A DNA stretch of 21,452 nt from Pirellulaceae bacterium (GTDB lineage: Bacteria > Planctomycetota > Planctomycetia > Pirellulales > Pirellulaceae), in NCBI GenBank assembly GCA_013002105.1, contig JABDKS010000909.1:1-21452 (forward strand). Reading direction: 5' to 3'. The notes beneath the pieces were generated by a model. The model saw nothing but the letters and a program-made list of their open reading frames with translations. It made no database searches and was not told the DNA's origin. This document shows, one piece after another, positions 3,330 to 5,593 of this stretch; the first letter of the stretch is position 1, and each line of letters begins with the position of its first letter. The translations under genes were made by a program, and so were the position numbers.

Positions 3330-4229
3330 CTAGGTATCCGGATGGGTCAAGCTGTTTCGCATCACTGTTGCCAATTCGACAAGGTGTCGAAGGCTATCGC
3401 AGTGGGCGGTGTACTGCAGATTCGGTCGAATTTGATCGTTTAAACCTCGCCCGCCGACGATCAACGAAACATCATCATCAAGTGAATTCGCCAGGCGAAT
3501 CTGTGCCGATGTAAACAGTGTCGGATTGTCGATGATGGAAATGCTGAGCCAAAGCAATTTCGGTTTGTAATCGTAGGCTGCCTGAATGAAACTCTCGATT
3601 GGCAAATTGGTTCCCAAATTCGTAGCATTCCATCCCGCCTCGCGAAGCGCCAGTTCTACCATGACGGTCGCCAGTTCGTACGGGTCACCCGATGCCGTTC
3701 CGCCGATCGCAACCGGCGCGGATTCGGGCAGAGCGGGGAGTGAAGCTCGCGCTTGGCCAAGAAGTCGAAGGCAAATGCCGCAACTGCGACGTTCCTGGTA
3801 GACATCAATTTCTTGACTTTCCCAAGCGTCGCCGACACCCTTCATCGCTTCTGAGATCAAATCCTCGGCCACCTCGGCAACCGACCAACCATCCGAGACT
3901 CGCTCGGCAAAAATGGTCTGGCACGTTTCTTCATCGCCCGACGCCAGCGCCTCGCGGAACTGTCGTCGTTGCGGATCGTCACTTCCCGGAATTCTGGTTG
4001 ATCGTGTGCTTGGCAGCACAGCGAATCCGAGAACACCTGGGTTCACCAGCGACCGATTGCTGGTTCGCAAGAACGTATGCAATCCTTCGGGCGTGATTCG
4101 CCGGTGCCCACCCACGGTCCGAATCGTCGGTATGACGCCCCGATCGCACCAACGTTTGACCGATGATTCGCTGACGCTCAACGATTCGGCGATCTGCTTG
4201 GGCGAGTAATGAGTCTGCTGAATGGGCAA
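3330..4229 (-). CDS. MerR-type regulator with CarH/LitR-like B12-binding architecture, ligand residues degenerate
   Basis: The product has 299 residues. The N-terminal helix-turn-helix (about 6-55) reads YSPKQIAESLSVSESSVKRW and ends with the MerR/excisionase signature TVGGHRRIT. A linker leads to a helical cap domain (about 90-165) and a Rossmann-like cobalamin-binding domain (about 172-295, with LGTNLP and IVGGRGL). In CarH-type photoreceptors the cap has W-x9-E-H and the B12 domain a D-x-H ligand motif. Here the cap reads Trp136-x9-Glu146-Arg147 and the second motif GDPY (Asp182, Tyr184), so both histidines are replaced. The start is TTG at 4229, supported by GAGGTG five bases upstream. 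It is transcribed divergently from a sigma factor and is the likely regulator of both promoters in the shared region. It may bind another ligand, bind B12 weakly, or act without a ligand. Confidence 0.88.
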   Translation of the reverse strand: MPIQQTHYSPKQIAESLSVSESSVKRWCDRGVIPTIRTVGGHRRITPEGLHTFLRTSNRSLVNPGVLGFAVLPSTRSTRIPGSDDPQRRQFREALASGDEETCQTIFAERVSDGWSVAEVAEDLISEAMKGVGDAWESQEIDVYQERRSCGICLRLLGQARASLPALPESAPVAIGGTASGDPYELATVMVELALREAGWNATNLGTNLPIESFIQAAYDYKPKLLWLSISIIDNPTLFTSAQIRLANSLDDDVSLIVGGRGLNDQIRPNLQYTAHCDSLRHLVELATVMRNSLTHPDT

Positions 4230-4257
4230 GCGAGCACCTCGGCGGATTAGGAAAGAC

Positions 4258-4269
4258 CGTTTTGAACGT
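4258..4269 (-). promoter_or_regulatory. Putative operator, regulator side
   Basis: Read on the minus strand this is ACGTTCAAAACG, identical to the element at 4451-4462 on the plus strand. Its first base is 22 nt from the first base of the proposed -10 of the regulator gene, placing it in the 5' leader. It is a candidate autoregulatory site for the MerR-type protein. Confidence 0.5.
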
Positions 4270-4285
4270 CTTGGTCCATCAATCT

Positions 4286-4314
4286 GATGTACGTAAGTGT
4301 ATCACTCGCGACAA
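4286..4314 (-). promoter_or_regulatory. Putative promoter of the MerR-type regulator
   Basis: On the minus strand TTGTCG (4309-4314) and TACATC (4286-4291) are separated by 17 bases. The -10 is weak on its own. Support comes from the close match in layout to the sigma-factor promoter on the other strand, including the downstream shared element at the same distance. Confidence 0.42.
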
Positions 4315-4405
4315 GTTGTACCGAAGGAAGACGATCAAAACACGTGCAAAAACAGGTGGTTTATGCGGTTTGTCTAAATTTCGGTGGTTTCTTGGAGTGA
4401 ATCCG

Positions 4406-4434
4406 TTGTCCCGGACGATCTTAACCGGTATAAC
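4406..4434 (+). promoter_or_regulatory. Putative promoter of the sigma-factor operon
   Basis: TTGTCC (4406-4411) and TATAAC (4429-4434) are separated by 17 bases, matching sigma-70 consensus at 4/6 and 5/6 positions. Transcription would begin near 4441, inside the palindrome at 4440-4456. Confidence 0.55.
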
Positions 4435-4439
4435 GGAAT

Positions 4440-4462
4440 GAACGTTTTAAACGTTCAAAACG
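4440..4462 (+). promoter_or_regulatory. Putative operator, sigma-factor side
   Basis: GAACGTTT-T-AAACGTTC (4440-4456) is a perfect 8-bp inverted repeat around one base, located at the predicted transcription start. It overlaps ACGTTCAAAACG (4451-4462), which recurs in inverted orientation at 4258-4269 beside the divergent gene. A protein bound here would block or modulate initiation. Binding by the adjacent regulator is inferred. Confidence 0.55.
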
Positions 4463-4501
4463 TCCATTCAGATCCATTCCACTTACATCGAGAAGTTTCC
4501 A

Positions 4502-5593
4502 ATGCCCGCTATCCAAACCACCGATCATCGTGAATCTGTCTCGTCTCGGCGAAGCACCGCGAAAGGCGGCGAGCAGCAGGCGGTTGCAAAACTGGCAGCC
4601 AGGAGACCTGGTTGGTTTAGTTCTCCCGAATTGGTGGTCGCGATCGAGGAAACGTCAGATGAATTGACCGATCTAACTGCCGCGTCTCGGGACGAGTTGA
4701 AATCGCTGACCCGCGACCGATTGCGAGTCGAAATCGACTTCATCGGTAATGGAGACTTTGCCCAAAAGCTGGCCGGGAGGCGGATTTTCAGCGAGTCGCT
4801 CAATTTGTCGCCTCGACAAGCAGAGTCGGGTCTGGCGACGTTGCGCCGGAGCGGTGTCGATTTGCCAATTCATCTCAGCCGATTGTGCGAAGTTGCCCTA
4901 TTGAAGCCGGAACAGGAGCGAATGCTGTTCGAACGAATGAATTTCCTGCGACAGCAAGCCGCTGCACATCGTAGTGCGCTTAATCCCAACCGACCTTCAC
5001 GTGTGCGTTTGGAGTTGATCGAACAATTGCTGGCTTTGGCCGATTGGCATCGAGACCGGATAGTCGAAGCGAATGTGCGTTTGGTTTTTTCGATCGTCAA
5101 GAAATTCGTGAATGCCTACTGCAATTTCGACGAATTGTTAAGCGATGGCATTGTTGCGATCATGCGGGCCGTCGAAAAGTTCGATTTCGATCGCGGATTT
5201 CGATTTAGCACGTATGCGACACAAGTCATTCGTCGCAGTTCCTACCAGACGGTGGTGGAGAAACAACAGGAGCGGCAATCGACGTTGGGTGGGTTGCAGG
5301 ATATGGATTTGGAGTTGACCGACGAAGGTCGTGAGTCGGCCATCAGCGAAAAACGATGGCATGAGCTGCGAGGTCGATTGGCGATCATGCTTGATCAACT
5401 CGACCGACGAGAAAAGTTTATCATACGTGCCCGTTTTTCACTCGGTGCCCACCGAAAGGTTTACACTTTACAAGCGTTAGCAAACCGCCTCGGTGTATCC
5501 AAAGAACGGGTTCGTCAGTTAGAACGTCGGGCCATGGATAAGTTACAGGCGATGGCGGTAGACACATCGATTGGTGAAATAGCGTCGATTTGA
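4502..5593 (+). CDS. Sigma-70 family RNA polymerase sigma factor
   Basis: The product has 363 residues. A poorly conserved N-terminal part (1-125) is followed by a region 1.2-like helix (about 128-155) and region 2 (about 187-255) with ANVRLVFSIVKKFV, FDELLSDGIVAIMRAVEKFD and RGFRFSTYATQVIRR. Region 4 (about 297-352) has TLQALANRLGVSKERVRQLE, the -35-binding helix-turn-helix. The promoter-melting segment differs from the housekeeping factor (QVIRRSSYQTV instead of the usual WWIRQAI type), so it is an alternative factor rather than RpoD. The ATG at 4502 lacks a strong ribosome site. It leads a run with two further genes (27-nt gap, then a 4-base overlap) and faces the MerR-type regulator. It may drive its own promoter or a wider regulon; the target promoters are not known. 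Confidence 0.9.
   Translation: MPAIQTTDHRESVSSRRSTAKGGEQQAVAKLAARRPGWFSSPELVVAIEETSDELTDLTAASRDELKSLTRDRLRVEIDFIGNGDFAQKLAGRRIFSESLNLSPRQAESGLATLRRSGVDLPIHLSRLCEVALLKPEQERMLFERMNFLRQQAAAHRSALNPNRPSRVRLELIEQLLALADWHRDRIVEANVRLVFSIVKKFVNAYCNFDELLSDGIVAIMRAVEKFDFDRGFRFSTYATQVIRRSSYQTVVEKQQERQSTLGGLQDMDLELTDEGRESAISEKRWHELRGRLAIMLDQLDRREKFIIRARFSLGAHRKVYTLQALANRLGVSKERVRQLERRAMDKLQAMAVDTSIGEIASI

Follow-up and report, generated by a model that had tools for sequence, protein, structure and literature searches.

Organization of the locus

The window, that is, the whole stretch of 21,452 nucleotides analysed, carries a gene for a CarH/LitR-like regulator and, divergent from it, a gene for a sigma-70-family factor, which is proposed to head an operon together with the genes for an SRPBCC-SDR protein and a small hydrophobic protein. 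The features of these genes and of the gap between them are listed in Table 1. The hydrophobic protein gave no match in Pfam or NCBIfam; a 147-aa reading frame also lies just after the SRPBCC-SDR gene at L001, and likewise at L013, as compared by position and length.

Within the gap, promoter-like pairs of hexamers separated by 17 bases were located on both strands as described in the initial annotation, and on both strands the same 12-mer, ACGTTCAAAACG (4451-4462 on the plus strand and 4269-4258 on the minus strand), starts 22 bases from the first base of the -10. This 12-mer occurs at these two places only in the whole window. The perfect 8+8 palindrome noticed at the predicted start of the plus-strand promoter is also present. 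The agreement between the 40-base stretches of the two strands, counted by eye as 27, came to 26 of 40 positions by computation. A sigma-70 consensus scan of positions 4000-5000 found no promoter; the promoter-like hexamers are weak matches, and what supports them is their conservation in relatives.

Table 1. Genes and predicted regulatory features of the divergent gap and its surroundings (window coordinates)
Feature	Position	Strand	Basis or remark
CarH/LitR-like regulator, 299 aa, proposed repressor	3330..4229	-	HTH_17 (excisionase/BldC-type), B12-binding_2 and B12-binding domains; Pfam, NCBIfam
Putative regulator-side operator, half-sites AGACCGTTTT and TGAACGTCTT in a 9-bp step	4254..4272	+	PWM score 18.2; holds the minus-strand 12-mer (4269-4258)
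Minus-strand promoter of the initial annotation, TTGTCG (4314-4309)-N17-TACATC (4291-4286)	4286..4314	-	Sequence confirmed; weakly supported
TACACT, window copy of the TAYACT box; alternative -10 of the regulator gene	4296..4301	-	Box kept in relatives, by eye
-35-like element TTGTCC of the predicted sigma-operon promoter, 17 bases before TATAAC	4406..4411	+	Window sequence; TTG kept in relatives
-10-like element TATAAC	4429..4434	+	Expected start about 4441; spacing from hexamer to half-site kept in relatives
Putative sigma-side operator, four contiguous 9-bp units AACGGAATG AACGTTTTA AACGTTCAA AACGTCCAT	4432..4467	+	Sequence, lag test, PWM, relatives
Sigma-side half-site TGAACGTTTT	4439-4448	+	
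Sigma-side half-site TGAACGTTTA	4457-4448	-	
Sigma-side half-site TGGACGTTTT	4466-4457	-	
8+8 palindrome GAACGTTT-T-AAACGTTC	4440..4456	.	Forward unit meets reverse unit in 9-bp phase
Sigma-70-family factor, 363 aa, regions 2 and 4	4502..5593	+	Proposed to head the controlled operon; Pfam, NCBIfam
SRPBCC (Polyketide_cyc) and SDR (TIGR01777/DUF1731) protein, 462 aa	5621..7009	+	Likely operon member
Hydrophobic protein, 148 aa	7006..7452	+	Overlaps the stop of the SRPBCC-SDR gene

The regulator protein

The regulator has the domain order of CarH/LitR proteins, an N-terminal HTH followed by the B12-binding four-helix and Rossmann domains, and its AlphaFold model (mean pLDDT 91.4) found its best PDB matches in Thermus thermophilus CarH (5c8d, 5c8e and 5c8f) and in the B12 domain 8jbs. 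The NCBIfam CarH equivalog model gave 49.5 bits, below its cut-off of 400, and the BldC model NF033787 gave 36.6 bits against the HTH, below its cut-off of 77. The PDB chains 6amk and 6ama of BldC gave profile matches at an E value of about 5e-6.

Relatives were collected by scanning a genome collection with a query alignment of 35 regulators, and the best 80 of the 166 relatives obtained, with 39-59% identity, were compared with the window protein. In the CarH of T. thermophilus, contacts to the adenosyl group come from Trp131 and Glu141, and the cobalt is ligated by His177 in the dark and by His132 after light (PMC10442372). The two adenosyl-contact positions are kept as W136 and E146 in all of the 81 proteins, and the residue after this Glu is Arg in 81 of 81. 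At the position of His177, whose register rests on the alignment to 8jbs, there is Tyr in 78 proteins, Thr in two and Phe in one; at that of His132, the residue after W131, His is found in none of the 81. Since neither of the cobalt-ligating positions carries His, the class I CarH chemistry is not expected to operate unchanged. The regulator may sense cobalamin held in an atypical manner, for instance with the Tyr facing the cobalt, or it may respond to another ligand or to a partner protein; by kinship, light or photo-oxidative stress may be the signal.

A 9-bp repeat array conserved in the divergent gaps

Among the best 80 of the 166 relatives, a sigma relative of 35-72% identity lies divergent from the regulator gene within 1.5 kb at 70 loci. 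These 70 gaps and that of the window, 71 in total, were divided by locus number, and thereby roughly by identity, into a near group of 32 (the window, L001-L030 and L047) and a far group of 39. The start of each gap was set by the sigma BLAST match, and many gaps hold some sigma coding sequence.

The gaps carry variants of TGAACGwwTTG[AG]ACGwwTT, in which the conserved half-site TGAACGwwTT recurs in 9-bp steps. In the window, the plus-side 12-mer turned out to be the interior of such an array, made up of four units, which overlaps the -10 and the expected start of the TTGTCC-N17-TATAAC promoter. When the window was compared with itself at various lags, the top score at lag 9 fell on the 36-base stretches beginning at 4431 and 4432 (19 of 27 matches, vs 2 of 25 within the array at lag 11); other lags reach 18 elsewhere in the window, and the evidence from the window alone is modest. 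It is the conservation in relatives that argues strongly for the 9-bp array.

Half-sites in the same orientation, with up to two mismatches each and exactly 9 bp apart, were detected in 28 of the 32 near and all 39 far gaps (67/71), vs 1.45 pairs per 71 gaps in the shuffled control. A PWM trained on the far gaps scored 30 of the 32 near gaps higher than any of 160 dinucleotide shuffles, and one trained on the near gaps scored 38 of the 39 far gaps higher than any of 195 (68/71 for both directions), these held-out halves being not fully blind in that both were seeded with one consensus string written after all the gaps had been viewed. The final model, with a site defined by a score of 15 or more, identified an array in 69 of the 71 gaps; the two gaps below this score, L001 and L023, hold the inverted form only, TGAACGTTTT-N8-AAAACGTTCA. 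At the same threshold, 167 sites were counted in 33.0 kb of gap and six in 545.7 kb of flanking DNA at the 70 loci, a comparison that is partly circular by use of a model trained on the same gaps.

Convergent half-sites in the near gaps lie mostly 18 bp apart (23 gaps), followed by 9 bp (10 gaps) and 27 bp (nine gaps), with at most four gaps for each of the other distances. Since these distances are multiples of 9, the reverse units of this Rhodopirellula-type group, which includes the window, stand in the same phase as the forward ones. No convergent half-sites at 18 bp were present in the far gaps. The gap at L033 contains eight 9-bp units that alternate between the AATGTTTTG and AGCGCTTTG types, an operator enlarged by natural repeat expansion.

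Position of the array relative to the promoter

Where a -10 was called, a 10-base stretch around the expected -35 place includes TTG in 26 of the 29 near gaps and in 27 of the 35 far ones. With distances measured to the first half-site that has a -10-like hexamer before it, a TATAnC-like hexamer stands 4 nt before the half-site in 19 of the 32 near gaps (none was called in three), and the far gaps most often show 9 nt (11/39), followed by 4 nt (8/39). Because the -10-like hexamers sit 4 or 9 nt before half-sites, the array covers the start site that these hexamers predict.

In 10 of the 39 far gaps (L041, L049, L056, L061, L062, L066, L070, L074, L077 and L079) and in none of the 32 near gaps, a second array is located at a distance of 56-60 bp and the promoter lies between the two, as in the order array, TTGACC-N17-TAGAAT, array at L070. 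Pairs of arrays 57-58 bp apart are also found at the sigma genes L098, L099 and L100 and beside the divergent gene in L054 and L076. The paired arrays at 56-60 bp suggest a bridging repressor. The PWM scan of the window detected no upstream array copy of this type.

The location of the array at the predicted 5' end of the sigma mRNA, where the palindrome gives a hairpin of seven pairs, raises the alternative that it acts as RNA in the 5' leader. The leader from 4440 to 4501 folds, however, with only -7.1 kcal/mol (raw value for the native sequence alone), and the window gave no match in Rfam. Convergent units are moreover rare in the far gaps, and the second array 56-60 bp upstream in 10 of the 39 far gaps also speaks against an RNA element. 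This reading is weak, and we regard it as extremely unlikely.

The regulator-side site

The site near the regulator gene in the window is imperfect and begins 24 bases beyond TACACT. At a score of 15 or more, a regulator-side site was identified in 24 of the 32 near gaps, the window included, and was absent in eight; all 24 are on the plus strand, the same strand as the sigma-side site, which was on the plus strand in 27 of the 32 and lacking in five. In the far group, the regulator-side site was on the plus strand in 19 gaps, on the minus strand in six and absent in 14. The initial annotation had supposed that both genes are under the same control, and this is strengthened by an operator of one predicted type at both genes, together with the conservation of the array in the 71 gaps.

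The rows on the regulator side were also compared by eye, with hand-picked sites in 28 of the 32 near and 14 of the 39 far gaps. No counterpart of TACATC at the 22-base spacing was seen in these rows. Of the 28 near rows printed, at least 13, among them that of the window, have TTGnC, 6-7 bases and TAYACT ahead of the regulator gene; in the window the form is TTGTCG-N7-TACACT (4296-4314, minus strand). The 6-7 bases are too short for an ordinary pair of -35 and -10 elements.

The annotation had further proposed that one promoter-operator cassette was duplicated and inverted to give two mirrored copies, in accordance with the 26/40 identity and the equal 22-base spacing in the window. The near-group operators are co-oriented, and by eye the regulator-side spacing varies among the relatives and TACATC lacks a counterpart; much of the identity, in addition, falls within the shared binding word. 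On the orientation of the operators in the relatives, two mirrored cassettes were rejected and are considered very unlikely. The two 12-mers look mirrored because the sigma-side array of the window includes units in reverse orientation, and with co-oriented operators and no TACATC counterpart, the equal 22-base spacing is best taken as a coincidence. In the Rhodopirellula-type gaps, the comparison of which the annotation had suggested, half-sites in 9-bp steps are kept in 28 of 32, and the mirrored geometry with its common 22-base spacing is not conserved.

The probable binding protein

At 10 loci the regulator gene has no divergent sigma gene, and at six of these (L040, L048, L054, L060, L065 and L076) the array is nevertheless present at the regulator. 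The divergent gene under the same type of array encodes a protein with a Pfam fasciclin domain in L048, L065 and L076 and one with a Pfam flavin amine-oxidoreductase domain in L060; three arrays each were observed in L054 and L076. The divergent reading frame of L054 is cut off and resembles fasciclin proteins by eye, and Pfam gave no match for it. No array was found at the regulator in the remaining four, L059, L068, L071 and L080. In three of these four genomes it is at a sigma gene (L100, L113, which is in the same locus as L071, and L098), and in the genome of L068 none was found.

The initial annotation had named either the regulator or the sigma factor as the binder. That the sigma factor of 4502-5593 reads the repeats, as promoter elements or as a site for autoregulation, would be in line with the location of the array at sigma-gene promoters and with its presence at sigma relatives outside the regulator gap: in L098, L099 and L100 it clearly precedes the start codon, and it also occurs in L112 and L113, whose start codons are ambiguous. 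However, a separate TTG..-N17-TATAnC pair precedes the array, which coincides with the -10 or follows it. Furthermore, the array is kept at the regulators of L040, L048, L054 and L076, in the genomes of which only RpoD-sized sigma relatives (561-585 aa) were found at E values of 1e-30 or less; the L076 genome is a 6.78-Mb Lacipirellula chromosome record, and those of L040, L048 and L054 are possibly incomplete MAGs. With the array present in genomes that gave RpoD-sized relatives only, binding by the sigma factor is disfavoured and appears quite unlikely. No array at score 15 was detected at the smaller sigma paralogs L097, L110 and L119 or at the RpoD-sized genes. In the genome of L078 (G013), the sigma copy adjoining the regulator (L108) has an array, and the more similar sigma gene L097 (57%), followed by an SDR gene, has none within its locus.

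The genome-wide search for the repeated word recommended in the annotation was carried out with several patterns. Exact matches turned out to lie almost exclusively at this locus: for the shorter direct-repeat pattern there were eight in 19 genomes, seven of them at regulator or sigma loci and the eighth (L155) inside an ORF, and for the inverted pattern eight in eight of 16 genomes, all eight in this gap. The strict direct-repeat pattern with one mismatch gave 15 matches in nine of 13 genomes, including 12 at regulator or sigma loci. With looser patterns, the counts approached those of the reversed-pattern controls: allowing one mismatch, the shorter pattern matched 36 times in 19 genomes (regulator or sigma loci account for 20 of the 30 matches fetched) vs seven for the control, and allowing two, the inverted pattern matched at 15 places in 16 genomes, of which 10 belong to this locus, vs eight for the control. 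The off-locus matches are therefore near the chance level, and a wider regulon was rejected. The four off-locus matches inspected (L085, L088, L139 and L155) are all within predicted ORFs.

Another factor, such as a nucleoid protein or a second regulator, could bind the array with the CarH/LitR-like protein as a mere neighbour, and the arrays at distant sigma genes, as well as the four of 10 regulators with neither a divergent sigma gene nor an adjacent array, would agree with such a factor. The near-confinement of exact matches to this locus fits a local regulator instead, and a general DNA-binding protein is disfavoured since it would have many sites genome-wide; we judge binding by another factor to be unlikely. 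Independence of the array from an adjacent sigma gene makes the regulator the most economical binder, and of the two candidates first named, the CarH/LitR-like regulator encoded here is most likely the protein that binds the array.

A predicted genetic switch

Altogether, a 9-bp-phased array is conserved in the gaps, adjoins promoter-like hexamers, accounts for nearly all exact matches and is present at some regulators without a sigma neighbour. From these observations, we infer that the regulator binds the array and represses both the sigma-factor operon and its own gene. The gap is best explained as regulatory DNA of a self-contained genetic switch, and probably a CarH/LitR-like repressor that binds in BldC-like 9-bp steps turns down its own gene and the sigma-factor operon. 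The regulator would bind TGAACGwwTT half-sites every 9 bp through DNA-binding domains arranged head-to-tail as in BldC. The array over the -10 and the start of the sigma-factor operon would block RNA polymerase, and the second array near the regulator start would lead to autorepression. Upon release of the regulator by a signal, the sigma factor, the SRPBCC-SDR protein and the small membrane protein would be made, and the sigma factor would carry the response onward.

Comparison with known systems

No publication on this planctomycete regulator-sigma pair or on its operator was found in a literature search that covered mainly open-access papers. For planctomycetes, the locus would define a regulatory module of two genes with a precise operator code, and it would offer a natural family with the B12 photoreceptor fold minus the cobalt ligands, in which one may ask what the sensor domain reads. 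CarH and BldC modes of DNA binding would be joined in one lineage. A possible history, which we rate at somewhat under an even chance, is that a planctomycete branch of the CarH fold lost both cobalt-ligating His residues, kept the adenosyl contacts, moved from an 11-bp to a 9-bp BldC-like operator and came to act as master switch over a dedicated sigma factor.

The pairing of a LitR-type regulator with a sigma factor is shared with LitR-LitS of Streptomyces coelicolor, in which the ECF sigma LitS reportedly relays the signal. The sigma factor here differs from LitS in being a 363-aa sigma-70-family protein with RpoD-like matches, and no carotenoid gene was detected among the ten window proteins scanned with Pfam and NCBIfam.

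With the class I CarH/LitR proteins, which are AdoB12-dependent MerR-type photoreceptor repressors, the regulator shares the domain order, the fold, the adenosyl contacts and the location of predicted operators on promoter elements; the characterised LitR/CarH proteins are repressors with operators on the -35, on the -10 or near the start (PMC9304148, PMC9758184). It differs from them in the lack of His at the H177 and H132 positions, in the 9-bp AACG units and in the predicted sigma-operon target. Because CarH uses 11-bp direct repeats of the form nnnnTnnACAn (PMC9304148), neither the spacing nor the sequence of the operator was inherited from the closest characterised family.

The HTH, with its below-cut-off match to the BldC model, and the direct repeats in 9-bp steps are reminiscent of Streptomyces BldC, which binds AATTXXXX(C) 9-letter direct repeats head-to-tail, four per 36-mer (PMC5859096). 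BldC is different in having no B12-type sensor domain and a distinct, AT-rich repeat. Finally, the paired arrays of the far gaps resemble the two-site layout of the class II LitR proteins PmlR2/PplR1 of Pseudomonas, which probably do not bind B12 and repress from sites on the -35 and between the start and the ATG (PMC9758184). These proteins have the operator TGTACA-N12-TGTACA, no second B12 domain and a LOV-protein partner (same source), and in all three respects, operator sequence, second B12 domain and partner, the planctomycete system is different.
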